DNA from: Prevotella sp. | GTDB lineage: Bacteria > Bacteroidota > Bacteroidia > Bacteroidales > Bacteroidaceae | DNA: 64,000 bases | Direction of reading: 5' to 3' | NCBI GenBank assembly: GCA_017548275.1 | Contig: JAFZAH010000051.1 | Span: forward strand, 1 to 64,000 | Part shown: positions 18,193 to 25,522 of the stretch, piece after piece | Layout of the letters: each line of letters starts with the position of its first letter | How positions within the stretch are numbered: the stretch's first letter is position 1 | Program-made: the position numbers and the translations under genes | Notes under the pieces: generated by a model | The model's database searches: none | Told to the model about the DNA's origin: nothing | The model's input: only the letters and a program-made list of their open reading frames with translations

Positions 18193-18963
18193 ATGAAATA
18201 CGCGATTATCGCCGCCGGAGAAGGCTCCAGACTCGCACATGAGGGAGTACAGATGCCTAAGCCGTTAGTCACCATACATGGAGAGACGCTCCTGCAGAGG
18301 CTCATACGTATCTTCATGGACAATCAGGCAGAGGAAATCTGCGTGATTTGCAACGGACAGACGGAGTCGGTGGCGCAGCATCTTGAGGAAATAATGCACA
18401 AAGGCTTGGGAGGTATTCCTGTGCCCTTGAAAATGTTGGTCAAAACCACGCCCAGTTCCATGCACAGCCTGTATGAACTGAGTAGGTTCTTCGATGACGA
18501 TGTCTTCTGTGCTACCACAGTTGACACCTTGTTCCGCGAGCGCGAGTTCGCGGAGTATATCTTTATGCTCGACAAGGCGGTGCGCAACGGTGAGGCCGAC
18601 GGGCTGATGGGCGTCACGTCATACATCGACGATGAGAAGCCGCTCTATGTCAATACCGCTGATGACCTCTCGGTCACGGGATTCTACGACGAACCGATGC
18701 CCGGTGTGAGATATGTCTCTGCAGGCATCTACGGACTCCATCGGCGCGCCATCGACACGCTGAAGGCATGTGTTGCCCGGGGTGAGATGAGAATGCGTAA
18801 TTTCCAACGGGCACTGCTGACCGTCGGGTTGAGCCTTAAGGCCTTCCCGTTCAGCAAAGTGATTGATATCGATCATGCCTCAGACATTGTCAAGGCTGAG
18901 ACGTTCCTGGACCGGCAGGTAGATGACAAACAGTCCCAAACGGTCAATTCCTCAAACGACTAA
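18193..18963 (+). CDS. NTP transferase, candidate CTP:inositol-phosphate cytidylyltransferase
   Basis: This 256-residue nucleotidyltransferase of the NDP-sugar pyrophosphorylase fold has the G-x-G-x-R signature AAGEGSRLAHEG (Gly9, Gly11, Arg13), followed by Lys23 in MPKPLV. Acidic VDTLF near residue 114 is a likely metal site. The family transfers NMP onto a phosphorylated substrate. As the first gene of a run that ends in inositol-phosphate synthase and contains a CDP-alcohol phosphatidyltransferase, the best guess is CTP:inositol-1-phosphate cytidylyltransferase giving CDP-inositol. That is inference from context, since ordinary sugar-1-phosphates cannot be excluded. The C-terminal residues and the TAA stop are encoded by an octamer repeat. 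Confidence 0.75.
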   Translation: MKYAIIAAGEGSRLAHEGVQMPKPLVTIHGETLLQRLIRIFMDNQAEEICVICNGQTESVAQHLEEIMHKGLGGIPVPLKMLVKTTPSSMHSLYELSRFFDDDVFCATTVDTLFREREFAEYIFMLDKAVRNGEADGLMGVTSYIDDEKPLYVNTADDLSVTGFYDEPMPGVRYVSAGIYGLHRRAIDTLKACVARGEMRMRNFQRALLTVGLSLKAFPFSKVIDIDHASDIVKAETFLDRQVDDKQSQTVNSSND

Positions 18964-19019
18964 ACGACCAGTCTCCCAAACGACCAAACGACCAGTCTCC
19001 CAAACGACTAAACGACCAA
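18931..19019. repeat. CCAAACGA octamer repeat between cluster genes 1 and 2
   Basis: Copies of an 8-nt unit (ccaaacga, variants ccagtctc, ctaaacga) cover the last codons and stop of the nucleotidyltransferase and run to the base before ATG 19020. The same array type lies at 25531-25617 and 45405-45461, also ending at start codons. Confidence 0.8.
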
Positions 19020-19862
19020 ATGCGTGAAGTGATTCTCATAGCCCGTGACGAGTGCTTTTCTCCCCATTCCGAGGCGAATGACCAAGCCATACTCCAAGCC
19101 GTGGAGCAGCGTCTTACAGCGCGAGGATACAAAACCACCATGGTGAGGGAGGACTTGAGAAGTGATATCTCCCTCTCTTTGGGGAGGGATGAAGAGGGAG
19201 ACTCTCAAACAGACACCTTGTGGGTGTCGATGGGACGCCACAAAACTACCTTGGATTTCCTCCGTAAAAAAGAGCAGCAGGGCATGGCGGTCGTCAACAG
19301 CGCAGATGGGGTGGGGATATGTGTCAGTCGAAGCCGTCTGGATGAGTTGATGCGACGTGAGCGCATACCCCTGCCGCCTGTAGAGGGAACTCACGGATAT
19401 TGGCTCAAAAGGGGCGACACCTCGGCACAATCGCATGACGACATCGTGTTCGCAGCCGATGAGCAAGAGCGCGACAGTGCCTTGCGACGCTTTCATGACA
19501 GAGGCATCAGTCTGGTGGTTGTCAGCAGCCATGTGACGGGCGATGTGGTGAAATTTTATGGCGTAGAGGGCACCTCGTTCTTTTGGTTTTGCTATCCCAC
19601 GGATGATGGTGTCACTAAATACGGTGATGAGTGGCGTAATGGCTCTGCGCACCATTATCCCTTCGATGTGGAGGGATTGCGCCGTGAGGCAGAACGGTTG
19701 TCGCGTTTGGTCGGTGTCCCGGTGTATGGTGGCGATGCTGTCATCACCGGTCAAGGACAGTTCTTCATCATCGATTTCAATGACTGGCCGTCATTCTCCC
19801 GATGCCGTGAGACTGCCGCTGACGCCATTACCGAATTATTGGTTAACAAGTATTTGAAGTAG
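19020..19862 (+). CDS. ATP-grasp-like protein in the inositol cluster
   Basis: This 280-residue protein has an ATP-grasp appearance. An N-terminal alpha/beta part comes first, then a SRLDELMRREGIPLPP-like lid entry near residue 104. A candidate ATP-binding Lys sits in YWLKRGD near 125, then VTGDVVKFYGV near 172. The C-terminal metal-binding segment GQFFIIDFNDWPSFS near 250 is the most diagnostic. ATP-grasp enzymes couple ATP to ligation or, in the ITPK family, to inositol-phosphate phosphorylation. The position between the nucleotidyltransferase and the CDP-alcohol transferase ties it to inositol-lipid synthesis, perhaps as a head-group kinase or ligase. The exact reaction is unknown. The gap to the downstream gene is 20 bp. 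Confidence 0.7.
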   Translation: MREVILIARDECFSPHSEANDQAILQAVEQRLTARGYKTTMVREDLRSDISLSLGRDEEGDSQTDTLWVSMGRHKTTLDFLRKKEQQGMAVVNSADGVGICVSRSRLDELMRRERIPLPPVEGTHGYWLKRGDTSAQSHDDIVFAADEQERDSALRRFHDRGISLVVVSSHVTGDVVKFYGVEGTSFFWFCYPTDDGVTKYGDEWRNGSAHHYPFDVEGLRREAERLSRLVGVPVYGGDAVITGQGQFFIIDFNDWPSFSRCRETAADAITELLVNKYLK

Positions 19863-19882
19863 CGGTTCTTACCGCGCTATAT

Positions 19883-20953
19883 ATGCAAGAAGAGAAAACT
19901 TTCAAGCAACTGCTTAAAGAATCGTTGAAATCCGATGACACCGAGGAATGGCTCGATGTCCATTTCACGCGGCCTATAGGATTGTGGTTCGCGCTGATTT
20001 GGAAAAGGCTGGGGGTGCATCCCAACACCATCACCATTCTCTCTATGTTCTTGGGGATTGCGGCGGCATTTATGTTCTACCACACCGGATTCTGGTATAA
20101 TGTGGGAGGAATGCTGCTGCTGATGTTCGCCAATTTCTGCGACTCCACCGACGGCCAATTGGCGAGGATGACCGGGCAGAAGACATTTGTGGGTCGTGTG
20201 CTCGACGGATTTGCCGGCGATGTGTGGTTCTTCTCCATCTATGCCGCGCTGTGTCTGAGGATGATGCCCCAACCGCTGTCCACTTCATACTATTTCGACA
20301 GCCCCACATGGGGAATATGGATTTGGGTGCTCGCATTCCTCGCAGGTATTCTCAGCCATTCGCCACAAGCCATGTTGGCGGATTATTACCGACAGATTCA
20401 CCTCTTTTTCCTGAAAGGGAAATCGGAAAGTGAGTTTGATACCTCAGCCCAGCAGCGTGCCATCTATGAGAACCTGCCGAAGAAAGGGGCGTTTTGGCCG
20501 CGGGCATTCCATTACAACTACGCCAACTACTGCAAAAGACAGGAACAGGCCACTCCCCGATTCCAGGAGTTCTTTGCCGCACTCCAAGAACGCTACCCTG
20601 ACATGGACCAGATGCCCGAGGATTTGCGTCAGTGCTTCCTCATCGGCAGCAGACCCCTGATGCCATACGCGAATATTCTCTCGTTCAACACAAGAGCCAT
20701 CTGCCTCTACATCAGCTGTCTGCTCAATTGTCCCTGGGTATATTTCCTCATTGAGATTTCGGTGTTTAATCTGATTTACGTGTTTATGCACAAACATCAT
20801 GAGCGCCTGTCACTCAAGATGATGGAAGCCTTCTTACAATCCTCCGATAATTCCGAAACCCCTGATACTCCAGAAAGTCCAGAATCTGTGGAATCTTCGG
20901 AACCTACGGCTCCTGCGCCATCTTCGACACCCTCCGACAATGATGCAGACTAA
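19883..20953 (+). CDS. CDP-alcohol phosphatidyltransferase, candidate inositol-lipid synthase
   Basis: This 356-residue membrane enzyme carries the family motif at Asp87-x2-Asp90-Gly91-x2-Ala94-Arg95-x8-Gly104-x3-Asp108. The fourth aspartate is expected at 112, but residue 112 is Gly and Asp is at 113. Hydrophobic segments flank the motif (about 50-85 and 110-130), and more follow to about 310. The acidic Ser/Pro/Glu-rich tail from about 312 is low complexity. The family exchanges CMP from a CDP-alcohol for a hydroxyl acceptor. Together with inositol-phosphate synthase and a nucleotidyltransferase, it probably transfers phosphoinositol from CDP-inositol to a diacylglycerol or ceramide. It overlaps the HAD gene by 14 bp. 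Confidence 0.85.
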   Translation: MQEEKTFKQLLKESLKSDDTEEWLDVHFTRPIGLWFALIWKRLGVHPNTITILSMFLGIAAAFMFYHTGFWYNVGGMLLLMFANFCDSTDGQLARMTGQKTFVGRVLDGFAGDVWFFSIYAALCLRMMPQPLSTSYYFDSPTWGIWIWVLAFLAGILSHSPQAMLADYYRQIHLFFLKGKSESEFDTSAQQRAIYENLPKKGAFWPRAFHYNYANYCKRQEQATPRFQEFFAALQERYPDMDQMPEDLRQCFLIGSRPLMPYANILSFNTRAICLYISCLLNCPWVYFLIEISVFNLIYVFMHKHHERLSLKMMEAFLQSSDNSETPDTPESPESVESSEPTAPAPSSTPSDNDAD

Positions 20954-21653
20954 GGGGTATATCTTCGATTACGGCGGCACGCTCGATACGGGGGGCTGCC
21001 ATTGGGGAAAAAAAATATGGCACGCCTATCAACGTGAAAACGTGCCTTTCAGTTGGGAGCGATTCCGTGAGGCATATATCTATGCCGAGCGTTATTTGGG
21101 TGCTCATCGCGTGATACAGCCAGAGCATACTTTCCGCCAACTGCTGCAAATAAAACTCCGTTTGGAGTTGCAGTTCTTGAGGGAGAATGGCTCTTGGACC
21201 ACGACAGATGATTTGTGCGACGGGATATGTGAACGACTGCTACGCACCCTCTACGACGAGGTGATGACCATCACCGCTCATAGCCGCGAGGTGCTCACAC
21301 GACTTGCTACGGAGGCGCCCATGGTGCTCGTCAGCAATTTCTACGGGAATATGCCGGTGGTGATGCGTGAATTCGGACTCGACGGATTGTTTCGGCAAAT
21401 CATCGAGTCGAGTGTGGTCGGTGTCAGAAAACCTGACCCGCGCATCTTCCAGATGGGAGTGGAGGCATTGGGCTTGAACCCTGAAGAGGTGACTGTTGTA
21501 GGCGACAGTATTGAAAAAGACATTATCCCCGCACGCAGTGTCGGATGTTGGACGGTGTGGCTCAAAGGCGAGGGGTGGAACGACGACCTTGCTGATGAAT
21601 CTATACCAGACCGGGTAATCACAGATTTGCGGGAATTGACAGAAACTGAATAA
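20940..21653 (+). CDS. HAD-superfamily hydrolase in the inositol cluster
   Basis: This 237-residue HAD-fold protein has motif I as DYGGTLDTGG with the nucleophile Asp10. The second aspartate (+2), usually the acid/base, is Gly12. Motif II is LVSNF near 130, motif III Lys in VRKPDPRIF near 160, and motif IV VGDSIEKDI near 185. The cap is a helical C1 insert. It could dephosphorylate a phosphoinositol intermediate, but the changed motif I makes a plain phosphatase role uncertain. It starts inside the transferase gene (14-bp overlap) and precedes the inositol-phosphate synthase by 16 bp, so it belongs to the same operon. Confidence 0.8.
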   Translation: MMQTKGYIFDYGGTLDTGGCHWGKKIWHAYQRENVPFSWERFREAYIYAERYLGAHRVIQPEHTFRQLLQIKLRLELQFLRENGSWTTTDDLCDGICERLLRTLYDEVMTITAHSREVLTRLATEAPMVLVSNFYGNMPVVMREFGLDGLFRQIIESSVVGVRKPDPRIFQMGVEALGLNPEEVTVVGDSIEKDIIPARSVGCWTVWLKGEGWNDDLADESIPDRVITDLRELTETE

Positions 21654-21669
21654 AATTAGATATTAAAAC

Positions 21670-22983
21670 ATGGAAAAAGTACATGCAAACGTGAAGAAAG
21701 CCGATGGTGCTTTAGGTGTCATGGTGGTTGGGTGTGGTGCTGTCGCCACAACATTCTTCACGGGTGTGCTGATGGCCCGGAAAGGACTTGCAAAGCCCGT
21801 GGGTGCATTGACACAGTATGACAAAATACGAGTGGGAAAAGGCGACAACAAACAATATCTTCCTTTTTCTTACATTGTGCCACTTGCAAAGTTGGATGAT
21901 TTGGTATTCGCCACATGGGATGTCTATCCTCAAAACGCATACCAGGCGGCCAAATATGCCGAAGTGCTCAGGGAAAAAGACATTGAGCCCGTGCGCGACG
22001 AACTGGAGAAAATCGTGCCCATGAAGGCGGCTTTCGACAAAAATTATGCCAAACGCATCGACGGCGACAACGTGAAAGAAGTGAAAACACGTTGGGAAAT
22101 GGTCGAGGCAATCAGGGAGGACATCAGACGGTTCAAAAAAGAGAGCAACGTGGCGCGTGTTGTCGTCATCTGGGCGGCGTCAACAGAAATTTTCGTGCCG
22201 GTATACGAACCGGTGCACGGGTCGCTCGAAACACTTGAAAAAGCAATGAAAGACAACGATACGGAGCATATTGCGCCGTCGATGTGTTATGCTTATGCCG
22301 CGCTGAGCGAAGGGGCGCCTTTCATCATGGGAGCACCTAATACCACCGTGGACATTCCCGCAATGTGGGAACTGGCTGAGAAAACGAAGATGCCGATTGC
22401 CGGAAAAGATTTCAAAACGGGGCAGACTCTCGTTAAAAGTGGATTCGCTCCTGTCATCGGAACCCGTTGTCTCGGACTGAGCGGATGGTTCTCTACCAAT
22501 ATTCTCGGTAATCGCGATGGACTCGTGCTCGACGAACCCGCCAACTTCCGGACAAAAGAGATGAGCAAACTCTCCACGCTTGAGACCATTCTCAAATCCG
22601 ATGAGCAGCCCGACCTCTATGCCGACTATTATCACAAGGTGCGCATCAATTATTACCCGCCTCGAAATGACAATAAAGAGGGGTGGGACAATATCGACAT
22701 CTTCGGGTGGATGGGTTATCCCATGCAAGTGAAAATCAATTTTCTCTGCCGCGACTCTATTCTTGCCGCACCCCTGCTACTCGACCTCTGTCTGCTCGCC
22801 GACTTGGCGGCGCGTGCCGGACGCTATGGCATACAGCGGTTTTTGAGTTTCTACCTCAAAAGTCCCATGCATGACTATACAAAGGGCGAACAGCCTGTCA
22901 ACAATTTATATCAACAATACACTATGCTGAAAAATGCCATCCGGGAAATGGGTGGGTACGAAGCGGATGAAGAAATCGATTAA
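21670..22983 (+). CDS. myo-inositol-1(3)-phosphate synthase
   Basis: This 437-residue protein is an NAD-dependent synthase that turns glucose 6-phosphate into inositol phosphate. The Rossmann motif VVGCGAVATTFFTGVLMAR is at residues 18-36. The family segments WAASTEIFVPVYEPVHGSLE near 165, GKDFKTGQTLVKSGFAPVIG near 250 and STNILGNRDGLVLDEP near 275 are typical of Bacteroidetes synthases. It is the last gene of the five-gene cluster, which makes it the defining enzyme of the pathway. Its last 17 bases overlap the start of the next gene, a DUF5686 protein. Confidence 0.93.
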   Translation: MEKVHANVKKADGALGVMVVGCGAVATTFFTGVLMARKGLAKPVGALTQYDKIRVGKGDNKQYLPFSYIVPLAKLDDLVFATWDVYPQNAYQAAKYAEVLREKDIEPVRDELEKIVPMKAAFDKNYAKRIDGDNVKEVKTRWEMVEAIREDIRRFKKESNVARVVVIWAASTEIFVPVYEPVHGSLETLEKAMKDNDTEHIAPSMCYAYAALSEGAPFIMGAPNTTVDIPAMWELAEKTKMPIAGKDFKTGQTLVKSGFAPVIGTRCLGLSGWFSTNILGNRDGLVLDEPANFRTKEMSKLSTLETILKSDEQPDLYADYYHKVRINYYPPRNDNKEGWDNIDIFGWMGYPMQVKINFLCRDSILAAPLLLDLCLLADLAARAGRYGIQRFLSFYLKSPMHDYTKGEQPVNNLYQQYTMLKNAIREMGGYEADEEID

Positions 22984-25522
22984 ACATTTTATTACGCTCT
23001 TTTGGGTGTTGATGCTGGCACAGACTGTCGGCGCACAAAACATCACTGGCGTGGTGCTCGATGACGAGAACGGCGACACCATCGCTTTCGCCTCTGCGTT
23101 CTATAAAGGGAATCACATCGGTGTGGCCAGCGATGCAAGCGGAAGATTCTCCATCGAACGGCACAACGGATGGACTCTGACAGTAAGTGCCATTGGCTAT
23201 AAACAGCAACAGTTTCTCATAAATGCCAACACCAAGTCGAACATGGTCGTACGCTTGAAACCTGAGGCGCAGGCGCTCGAAGAGGTGGTGGTGAAGTCCA
23301 AGAAAAGTAAGTACAGCAGGAAAGACAATCCTGCTGTGGAACTCATGAAAAGGGTGGTGGCAGCAAAAAAACGCACGCACCTCGATAATCATGACTTCTA
23401 TCAGTATAACAAATATCAAAGAATCACGCTGGCGGTGAACGATATCTCCCCGCAAGAACTCCTCGAGGCGCAGGAGAAGAAAAAACAATGGTTTGTTGAC
23501 CAAATCGAGTTGTGTCCTATCAATAATAAACTGATTCTCCCTATTTCTGTCGATGAGACCGTCTCACAGCGCATCTACAGGAAAGATCCACGTGCAGAAA
23601 AGGACATCATTAAAGGACAATCGACCAAGGGTATCAACCAGTTGATTGAAACGGGAAATGTGCTCAATGCGGTGCTCAAAGATGTGTTTACTGACGTTGA
23701 TATCTACGACGACAATATCAAACTGTTGCGTAATTCGTTCACCAGTCCTATCGGTAGCGGTGCGGTCGCCTTCTATCGATTCTATATCGTTGATACCGTG
23801 TTCGTGGGGCGCGACAAATGCATACATTTGCAGTTCTATCCCAACAACCAGCAGGACTTCGGATTCAACGGCGAACTTTATGTGCTTAATGACAGTACGC
23901 TGCATGTAAAGAAATGTGACCTCAAGTTGCCCGCACGCACAGGTGTCAATTTCGTCGAGGACATGAAAATCAGTCAGGAATATACACAACTCGACAACGG
24001 AGAATGGGCGCTCTCGGCCGATGATATGTCCGTGGAGATGTCGCTCGCCGAGTTCCTGACGAAGGCCATTGTCATACGCTCCACGAGAATGAGTGATTAC
24101 TCTTTCGACGAATTGCCGAAGAGTATGTTCAAAGGAAAGGCGAACACGCGGTATGACCCAAATGCGAAGTTACGCGACAACCAGTTCTGGGAAAAGCATC
24201 GCTCCGTGGAACTGACCAACAGCGAGTCATCCATGTCGGATTTCATCCATCGTGTCGAAAACATAAAAGGATTCAAATACCTGCTGTTCGCTGCGAAGGC
24301 GCTTATCGAGAACTTTGTCGAGACGGGCTCCGAGAATACCAAGAGCAAATTCGATATAGGACCCGTCAATACCGTCATCTCAAACAACTTTGTTGACGGC
24401 ATACGTTTACGTGCGTCAGGTCAGACGACTGCGGCACTCAATCCGCATCTCTTTTGGAAAGGGTATTATGCATACGGAACCAAGAGCCACAGAAGTTATT
24501 ACAGTTCGCTCCTCACATATTCGTTCAACAGAAAAGAATATCAGCCGGGCGAGTTCCCCATACGCACCATTTCCTTTGAGACGTCACGTGACGTGATGTC
24601 TCCTTCCGATAAGTTCCTCGGTACAGACAAGGATAACGTCTTTACGGCGTTCAGATGGAGCAAAGTCAATCAGATGTATTTCTACAACCGCCAGCAGTTG
24701 AAGTTTGACTGGGAGACGCAGTGGGGATTCCGCACCACGTTTGATGTCAAGGCTGAGAGTAATGAACCGACAGGCGAGTTGGAGTTTATACGCCTCTCCG
24801 ACGGACAGCCGGTCAACAAGATTCGCACCACGCAGATGACACTTGCGCTCGACTATTGTCCTGGACGCAGTTATGTCAATACAAAACAGCACCGTATAGC
24901 GGTCAACCTGGATGGACCGGAGTTCACTGCCAGCCATACCATGGGCTTTGACGGATTCCTCGGCGGGCAATACAAGTATAACTACACCGAACTGGGTCTA
25001 TATGCGCGCCTGTGGCTGAAGACTTGGGGTAAGATGGAATGTCATTTCAAGGCGGGTGCGCAATGGAACAAGGTGCCCTTCCCGCTGCTCAACATGCCGC
25101 CGACCAACCTCTCTTATGTCATCAGTAAAAGTTCGTTCTCGTTGATGAAAAACATGGAGTTCCTCAACGACCGTTTCTTCTCGGCGAATATCACTTGGGA
25201 CCTCAAAGGTAAAATTTTCAACCGAATACCTCTCATCAAAAAACTCAAATGGCGTGAAGTGGTCGGCATCAAAGGCATCATAGGAAGACTCACCGACAAA
25301 AACAATCCCACTTTGCCACAAAACGCTGACGACAACATGCTCTTTGCTTTCCCCGAAGGTACTCACTTCTTCAATCATGCCGAGCCTTATTGGGAACTGG
25401 TCCTCGGTGTGAGGAATATCTTCCGTTTCTTCCAGGTCGATTACGTACGTCGCCTCAGTTATACCGGACTGCCTGGCATCAAAAAACACGGCATCCGTTT
25501 CGGCTTCGAATTTAGTTTCTGA
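22967..25522 (+). CDS. DUF5686-type outer-membrane protein with carboxypeptidase-like domain
   Basis: This is an 851-residue exported protein. The start ATG 22967 gives a signal peptide (MKKSIKHFITLFWVLMLAQT, cleaved near GAQ), 17 bp inside the inositol-phosphate synthase gene. After a CarboxypepD_reg-like Ig domain (about 25-100, ITGVVLDDENGDTIAF) comes a long region with alternating hydrophobic/polar strands ending FGFEFSF, typical of outer-membrane barrels. The family is widespread in Bacteroidetes and poorly understood. The overlap with the preceding gene suggests cotranscription with the inositol cluster; whether it has a role in lipid display is not shown. Confidence 0.8.
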   Translation: MKKSIKHFITLFWVLMLAQTVGAQNITGVVLDDENGDTIAFASAFYKGNHIGVASDASGRFSIERHNGWTLTVSAIGYKQQQFLINANTKSNMVVRLKPEAQALEEVVVKSKKSKYSRKDNPAVELMKRVVAAKKRTHLDNHDFYQYNKYQRITLAVNDISPQELLEAQEKKKQWFVDQIELCPINNKLILPISVDETVSQRIYRKDPRAEKDIIKGQSTKGINQLIETGNVLNAVLKDVFTDVDIYDDNIKLLRNSFTSPIGSGAVAFYRFYIVDTVFVGRDKCIHLQFYPNNQQDFGFNGELYVLNDSTLHVKKCDLKLPARTGVNFVEDMKISQEYTQLDNGEWALSADDMSVEMSLAEFLTKAIVIRSTRMSDYSFDELPKSMFKGKANTRYDPNAKLRDNQFWEKHRSVELTNSESSMSDFIHRVENIKGFKYLLFAAKALIENFVETGSENTKSKFDIGPVNTVISNNFVDGIRLRASGQTTAALNPHLFWKGYYAYGTKSHRSYYSSLLTYSFNRKEYQPGEFPIRTISFETSRDVMSPSDKFLGTDKDNVFTAFRWSKVNQMYFYNRQQLKFDWETQWGFRTTFDVKAESNEPTGELEFIRLSDGQPVNKIRTTQMTLALDYCPGRSYVNTKQHRIAVNLDGPEFTASHTMGFDGFLGGQYKYNYTELGLYARLWLKTWGKMECHFKAGAQWNKVPFPLLNMPPTNLSYVISKSSFSLMKNMEFLNDRFFSANITWDLKGKIFNRIPLIKKLKWREVVGIKGIIGRLTDKNNPTLPQNADDNMLFAFPEGTHFFNHAEPYWELVLGVRNIFRFFQVDYVRRLSYTGLPGIKKHGIRFGFEFSF

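Follow-up and report, generated by a model that had tools for sequence, protein, structure and literature searches.

We analysed a 64,000-nucleotide stretch of Prevotella sp. DNA (the window; GenBank assembly GCA_017548275.1, contig JAFZAH010000051.1, positions 1 to 64,000) from a 3.22-Mb draft genome that is 87% complete. Five plus-strand genes at 18193..22983 form a tight run, which an original prediction, made from the letters alone, had read as an inositol-lipid cluster of the CDP-inositol type (CDP, cytidine diphosphate). All five open reading frames (ORFs) were verified, with successive gaps of 56, 20 and 16 bp and an overlap of 14 bp between genes 3 and 4, as had been described. Gene 1 (18193..18963, 256 aa) encodes a nucleotidyltransferase, probably a cytidine triphosphate (CTP):inositol-phosphate cytidylyltransferase, with matches over cut-off to PF00483 (NTP_transferase, 38.9 bits, cut-off 21.2) and PF12804. 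Gene 2 (19020..19862, 280 aa) encodes an ATP-grasp protein, proposed here to be an inositol or inositol-phosphate kinase resembling the inositol tris/tetrakisphosphate kinases (ITPK). Gene 3 (19883..20953, 356 aa) encodes a CDP-alcohol phosphotransferase-like membrane protein (PF01066, CDP-OH_P_transf, 44.1 bits, cut-off 22), the proposed phosphoinositol transferase to ceramide or diacylglycerol, and gene 4 (20940..21653, 237 aa) a HAD-family protein that is probably a phosphatase or phosphotransferase (PF00702, Hydrolase, 61.3 bits, cut-off 26.4). Gene 5 (21670..22983, 437 aa) encodes myo-inositol-1(3)-phosphate synthase, both domains being over the Pfam cut-off (PF07994, 340.7 bits; PF01658, 103.9 bits), and is the sole inositol-phosphate synthase match in this incomplete genome. 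The predicted family labels of genes 1, 3, 4 and 5 are thus borne out by Pfam gathering scores. At E 0.001 neither Pfam nor NCBIfam matched gene 2; its ATP-grasp label comes from ATP-grasp structures matched by profile (best E 1.7e-6) and from a D-x-N that is invariant near the C terminus.

The run is the known alternative inositol-lipid cluster, whose pathway is predicted, and it is an ordinary member in which one core gene had been overlooked and two active sites are unusual. Although few bacteria have inositol lipids, these are common in gut Bacteroidota and there influence the capsule, antimicrobial-peptide resistance and fitness (PMC9246714). In the same paper Heaver et al. (2022) describe the alternative cluster in B. 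vulgatus and Prevotella, which is the Prevotella proposal that the original prediction had mentioned, and give a route, marked there as unconfirmed, from CDP-inositol to phosphoinositol-diacylglycerol (PI-DAG) and then, via the HAD protein, to phosphoinositol-dihydroceramide (PI-DHC). The window run shares with that cluster a nucleotidyltransferase, a CDP-alcohol transferase and a HAD gene near an inositol-phosphate synthase gene; LPG-synthase-like and carboxypeptidase-regulatory neighbours are also named in the paper. The cluster and the CDP-inositol idea are already in print, and what is new, relative to the parts of PMC9246714 considered, is the ATP-grasp gene as a core member, the independence of the HAD gene from the synthase, and the motif losses. 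The term ATP-grasp has no occurrence in the main text of that paper, whose section 10 assigns no such gene a role; the numbering gap from BVU_RS13095 to BVU_RS13105 suggests a putative additional gene in the B. vulgatus cluster too. A 2023 review treats the route as an in silico prediction still awaiting full characterization (PMC10191378), and a variant form in Prevotella is mentioned in a 2025 review (PMC12482443). No reported test of the alternative route was found in the open literature, as judged from titles and the starts of abstracts.

Conservation was surveyed in 201 genomes of the same family (Bacteroidaceae), drawn evenly. Raw matches were found to the ATP-grasp gene in 128 genomes, the transferase in 158, the nucleotidyltransferase in 133 and the synthase in 139; weak matches (one nucleotidyltransferase, six transferase) were dropped before co-occurrence was counted. 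The nucleotidyltransferase is then present in all 128 ATP-grasp genomes, the transferase in 127 and the synthase in 115, and the ATP-grasp gene is present in 128 of the 132 nucleotidyltransferase genomes (Fisher p 1e-49, the species not being independent). Transferase relatives without the other cluster genes occur in 24 family genomes, hence the transferase family is broader than this pathway. We also considered named loci, the best 80 of 585 relatives, all located via the ATP-grasp gene and some on contigs that stop early, and wider stretches from 33 family cluster genomes hand-picked for spread. In the 80 named loci the stretch with the ATP-grasp gene also holds the nucleotidyltransferase (76), the HAD gene (77), the transferase (75) and the synthase (34). 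ATP-grasp, HAD and synthase genes lie together in nine of the 80, with the nucleotidyltransferase-transferase pair further on in five and outside the stretch in four.

The cluster genes are also joined to one another in several genomes. Single open frames hold the nucleotidyltransferase and ATP-grasp protein in L037, L040, L042, L045, L046, L098 and L140, these two plus the transferase in L055, the ATP-grasp protein and transferase in L056, and the transferase and HAD protein in L049, L100, L120 and L132. An LPG_synthase_TM protein is joined to the HAD protein in L042 and to the nucleotidyltransferase in L052 (by Pfam) and L053 (by eye, where a contig end cuts it). Elsewhere the set is split, either as ATP-grasp-HAD-synthase apart from nucleotidyltransferase-transferase (L032/L033) or as nucleotidyltransferase-ATP-grasp apart from transferase-HAD-synthase (L035/L036). 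Such fusions and varying splits are as expected for one pathway. The ATP-grasp gene and the HAD gene both look like core cluster members. The original prediction had left the roles of these two proteins unexplained, and this is corrected for the ATP-grasp gene by its near-constant company with the nucleotidyltransferase, and for the HAD gene by its presence in 12 of 12 loci from outside the family and 13 of 13 ATP-grasp genomes without a synthase.

These 13 genomes, eight of them at least 90% complete, also gave no match to the Pfam synthase model (0/13). With the HAD gene retained at the cluster in every one, the ATP-grasp and HAD genes are not tied to the synthase, which speaks against the HAD protein as a servant of that enzyme. 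Five of the 13 have at the operon an MFS gene with 54-100% identity to its L044 counterpart, a fucose permease according to NCBIfam (302 bits, cut-off 280); a PfkB-family kinase gene is there as well in two of the five. Next to the operon, L044/L224, L048 and L212 have both an MFS gene and a divergent PfkB-family gene, L039, L069, L211, L213 and L220 the MFS gene alone, and L199 the PfkB gene alone; the 80 named loci contain neither. The MFS genes, with or without PfkB, possibly serve inositol salvage, which would support inositol as a substrate yet make action of the ATP-grasp protein on free inositol less likely. The idea that the ATP-grasp kinase acts on free inositol, which came from the synthase-less genomes, is accordingly weakened by the PfkB and MFS genes seen in some of them. 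A phytase-type phosphatase (PF00328) was tried as a discriminating partner and rejected as too widespread, with matches in 12 of 14 genomes.

An ATP-grasp profile search of 395 phylum genomes matched 36, of which 15 were strong (E 1e-57 or better), including four from the same family with the window's own genome among them. The remaining 21 matches were partial, to ORFs of 428-563 aa that may belong to another ATP-grasp family. Twelve stretches from 11 genomes outside the family, located via the ATP-grasp gene, contain the nucleotidyltransferase, transferase and HAD genes in every case (each 12/12), an LPG_synthase_TM gene in 11 and the synthase in 10. Between the nucleotidyltransferase and ATP-grasp genes of L200, L201, L206, L207 and L209 lies a three-gene MlaE, ABC ATPase and MlaD set, which is a lipid-transport set (named by Pfam for L201 and by eye in the other four, these five being the gaps that were read; L202, L204 and L205 have gaps of similar size). 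L201, L202, L204 and L205 have a tandem pair of ATP-grasp genes inside the operon.

These operons bear on whether the product is a lipid at all. A soluble di-inositol-phosphate solute, or inositol phosphate for the capsule, would recall the Thermococcales bifunctional di-inositol phosphate enzyme (NF041135), which weakly matches genes 1 and 3 (23.4 and 25.3 bits, where the entire enzyme has a cut-off of 580). We consider a non-lipid product very improbable, given the lipid-transport genes within distant operons, the LPG_synthase_TM membrane protein in many relatives' operons, and the production of PI-DHC, detected by high-performance liquid chromatography-mass spectrometry in B. vulgatus and P. 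veroralis, by species with the cluster (PMC9246714).

Three profiles of the gene 2 family were compared with PDB sequences, namely A1 (26 members), A5 (51 members, from the window and the named loci) and A7 (33 diverse members). A7 matched 7drm (1.7e-6), ITPK4 (7.9e-6), five more inositol-kinase sequences at about 6e-4 (up to 6.4e-4) and RimK (0.016), such that six of the seven PDB sequences at E < 1e-3 are inositol kinases, four of these being one human enzyme. With A1 the values were 6e-4 for 7drm and 0.0023-0.045 for six inositol kinases, followed by two unrelated proteins from 0.5. The family has D-x-N, then D/E, W/F and P, near the C terminus in 124 of 129 ORFs. In the printed alignments both this family and the inositol kinases have D-x-N, followed in ITPK as in the gene 2 family by P-S/G-F/Y, whereas 7drm has E-x-N. 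We propose that gene 2 encodes a distant, weakly similar relative of the inositol tris/tetrakisphosphate kinases, and a kinase role would fit the protein; it differs from ITPK in being bacterial and within a lipid operon, with similarity at the detection limit. ITPK1 of Arabidopsis and human reportedly phosphorylates inositol 3-phosphate (Ins3P), the product of the synthase (PMC7618535), and ITPK4 combines an ATP-grasp domain with an N-terminal HAD-like domain (PMC7614388).

The ATP-grasp protein might instead be a ligase, coupling an amino acid or a like group to the headgroup so that the end product is a modified inositol lipid. This alternative draws on 7drm, the top A7 match and an ATP-grasp peptide ligase, and on a class III aminotransferase with a Gfo/Idh oxidoreductase among the core genes of four distant operons (L200, L201, L206 and L208), which could supply an amino group to couple; the best NCBIfam relative of the L208 oxidoreductase is inositol 2-dehydrogenase (107 bits, under the cut-off of 355). 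The window cluster has no such pair, however, and in L199, L203, L207 and L210 there is no room for one between core genes that still include the ATP-grasp gene. The D-x-N of gene 2 is that of the inositol kinases and not the E-x-N of the ligase, and we regard a ligase role as improbable. As a separate observation, the aminotransferase and inositol-dehydrogenase-like pair could make the headgroup of those four operons an amino-inositol.

Gene 1 has R13, K23, D111, D225 and D227 invariant across 49 rows. By motif and spacing, the first three match the active-site Arg, Lys and Asp of the T. maritima inositol-1-phosphate cytidylyltransferase (IMPCT), residues named in PMC12275187. Profile matches of gene 1 mix thymidylyl-, guanylyl-, uridylyl- and cytidylyltransferases, and the sequence by itself does not single out CTP as the nucleotide. 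The comparison with cytidylyltransferases that had been put forward as a check gave a divided answer, with the Arg, Lys and Asp retained but the matches mixed and NF041135 far under its cut-off. The CDP-inositol type remains the best reading of the cluster. The hyperthermophile CDP-inositol route (IMPCT, 4jd0; IPCT/DIPPS, 4mnd) shares with the window a cytidylyltransferase, a CDP-alcohol transferase and the active-site R, K and D, but the window transferase lacks the fourth signature Asp of its family and the NCBIfam equivalog cut-off is missed by far. We know of no ATP-grasp or HAD partner in the hyperthermophile route. A further likeness is to the Caulobacter CpgD route to ceramide diphosphoglycerate, in which a headgroup phosphate destined for a ceramide lipid is activated by a similar nucleotidyltransferase; that route differs in its phosphoglycerate headgroup and earlier ceramide kinase, and the term CDP-alcohol does not occur in the text considered (PMC12275187).

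CDP-alcohol transferases have eight absolutely conserved residues plus a P(D/N)xx(T/S) motif, and the fourth Asp is the likely base, Asn in its place nearly abolishing activity (PMC4634129). The window transferase keeps D87, D90, G91, A94, R95, G104, D108, P47 and T51, all invariant in 31 rows, which is seven of the eight signature residues plus the additional motif. From these residues it resembles the CDP-alcohol phosphotransferases yet fails at one defining position, that of the catalytic-base Asp, and the residue following this place is Asp in 97 transferase ORFs. The fourth Asp is kept by two other CDP-alcohol transferases of the same genome and by the BT_1523-type enzyme of L071. By hydropathy there are five to six hydrophobic segments, the fourth and fifth being separated by a polar stretch of about 100 residues; the search for added C-terminal membrane helices, which would have pointed to a lipid acceptor, found none. 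Transferase paralogues in L066, L067, L068 and L070, on stretches without a nucleotidyltransferase or ATP-grasp gene, have Gly-Asp (three) or Ser-Glu (one) at the place of the fourth Asp.

In NCBIfam the transferase comes closest to archaetidylinositol-phosphate synthases (47.4 bits, cut-off 180) and phosphatidylinositol (PI)-phosphate synthases (43 bits, cut-off 170). These far-under-cut-off matches and the five to six membrane segments would suit a route through phosphatidylinositol phosphate (PIP), with the transferase acting on CDP-diacylglycerol and inositol 3-phosphate, the HAD protein as the PIP phosphatase, and the nucleotidyltransferase and ATP-grasp protein in a side branch. The BT-like cluster (BT_1522/23/25/26) shares with the alternative one its inositol-phosphate synthase start and PI-dihydroceramide end product but passes through a PIP-DAG intermediate. 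The BT_1523-type PIP synthase was found in 19 of the 201 family genomes at E 1e-20, its model (NF052561) gave no match at that threshold in the window's own 87%-complete genome, and it coincides with the ATP-grasp set in one of the 19 only. The nucleotidyltransferase and transferase, moreover, are both present in 127 of the 128 ATP-grasp genomes and share one open frame in L055, and diacyl PI went undetected in B. vulgatus (PMC10056535). A PIP-type route is in our view quite unlikely.

The published proposal has the transferase join CDP-inositol to diacylglycerol, the HAD protein convert the resulting PI-DAG to PI-dihydroceramide, and the ATP-grasp gene as incidental. It has section 10 of Heaver et al. 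and the PI-DHC measured in B. vulgatus behind it (PMC9246714), and fusions of the transferase with the HAD protein are consistent with it. Against this, the ATP-grasp gene accompanies the nucleotidyltransferase in 128 of 132 genomes and in several has become joined to genes for core enzymes, and the HAD protein lacks its second catalytic Asp. It would also be unusual for a HAD enzyme to shift a phosphodiester headgroup from one lipid to another, which counts against the proposal. Lipidomics in 2023 found ceramide phosphoinositol at 1% of B. vulgatus sphingolipids; diacyl PI was seen in B. thetaiotaomicron and B. ovatus and went undetected in B. vulgatus, although non-detection is not absence (PMC10056535). 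Ceramide phosphoinositol without detected diacyl PI favours direct transfer to ceramide, and we judge the published order of steps unlikely. The window's own genome encodes a serine palmitoyltransferase (NF047600, 671 bits, cut-off 640), so ceramide synthesis can start there. Of the two acceptors named in the original prediction, ceramide fits the B. vulgatus lipidome better and diacylglycerol less well (PMC10056535).

The reading we favour, at a probability of roughly 0.5, is that the five genes form an operon that makes phosphoinositol lipids from a CDP-activated headgroup in a Kennedy-type order of kinase, cytidylyltransferase and phosphotransferase, much as human cells make other lipids. 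Inositol 3-phosphate or inositol would come from the synthase or, in some relatives, from import that may involve a sugar-type kinase; the ATP-grasp protein would phosphorylate inositol or the inositol monophosphate to the form to be activated. The nucleotidyltransferase would then use CTP to give CDP-inositol (or CDP-inositol phosphate), and the CDP-alcohol phosphotransferase-like protein would move phosphoinositol to a lipid acceptor, most likely to dihydroceramide directly. Finally the HAD protein may remove a phosphate, either the additional one that the kinase attached or one carried by the lipid acceptor.

Several observations weigh against this Kennedy-type reading. At the kinase step, the top PDB match with both A1 and A7 is 7drm, an ATP-grasp peptide ligase. 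The top five matches of A5 are inositol kinases, but at E 0.036-0.082, followed by unrelated proteins (from 0.097) and 7drm (0.42). No A7 member is over a Pfam cut-off, the matches being to Ins134_P3_kin (3/33), RimK (3/33), TTL (3/33) and the unrelated Imm40 (5/33), all weak. Action of the ATP-grasp protein on free inositol would not be required if, in some genomes, PfkB supplies inositol phosphate, and ITPK4, the best-matching inositol kinase, reportedly does not use inositol 1-phosphate (Ins1P) or Ins3P (PMC7614388). Four nucleotidyltransferase genomes (G123, G129, G141 and G159) have no ATP-grasp match, and the gene 1 profile shows no preference for CTP enzymes. The fourth signature Asp is present in none of 121 transferase ORFs with the motif, being replaced by Gly (104), Ser (12), Glu (4) or Ala (1); in these counts loci were not de-duplicated and paralogues are included, and one further transferase ORF did not fit the motif. 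Five to six transferase segments would suggest a soluble acceptor under the rule that ties a six-helix layout to soluble acceptors in this family (PMC4634129). The HAD protein keeps the motif I nucleophile Asp in 119 of 120 ORFs, but the second Asp of this DxD motif is Gly in the same number, one ORF being off pattern. The HAD gene was seen in 27 of 29 synthase-bearing cluster genomes, two having none in the fetched stretch. As for inositol supply, the enrichment of MFS genes in synthase-less genomes is not significant (5/13 vs 3/29, p 0.08), and the flanks differ while several of the genomes share a genus.

A more specific and tentative form of the Kennedy-type reading, which we rate as doubtful, is a phosphate relay in which the ITPK-like kinase makes a bisphosphate from inositol 3-phosphate, the new phosphate is activated, phosphoinositol phosphate is transferred directly to ceramide, and the 3-phosphate is then taken off by the HAD protein. 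If true, such a relay would give the inositol ring its usual D-1 linkage and bring an inositol-phosphate kinase into membrane-lipid synthesis together with a CDP-alcohol transferase without the usual catalytic base. The odd catalytic motifs of the transferase and HAD protein would interest enzymologists. With the ATP-grasp protein as a core member and no obligatory PI-DAG, the alternative route becomes a five-enzyme test in vitro.

Downstream of the synthase gene, and on the same strand, lies a probable operon neighbour (22934..25522) with DUF5686 (PF18939) and CarbopepD_reg (PF13715) domains. Its first ATG is inside the synthase gene, giving an overlap, and the real start is possibly further downstream. 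A homologue is present in most stretches of relatives, and the protein is presumably an outer-membrane barrel. It may be equivalent to the BT_1527-type neighbour named in PMC9246714. Short direct repeats of the CCAAACGACCA type occupy the gap between the nucleotidyltransferase and ATP-grasp genes (18936-19018), as five overlapping 35-nt copies with 60-100% identity. Two further genes of note lie elsewhere in the same genome. On contig C14 (L195, 583-2376) a nucleotidyltransferase is joined to a CobD/HisC-like aminotransferase and is another possible activator of an NDP-linked (nucleoside diphosphate) headgroup. On contig C40 (L156, 1474-2556), away from the cluster, an LPG_synthase_TM protein similar to the one in many relatives' operons adjoins a PdxA-like gene and a sigma-54-type regulator, both assigned by eye.

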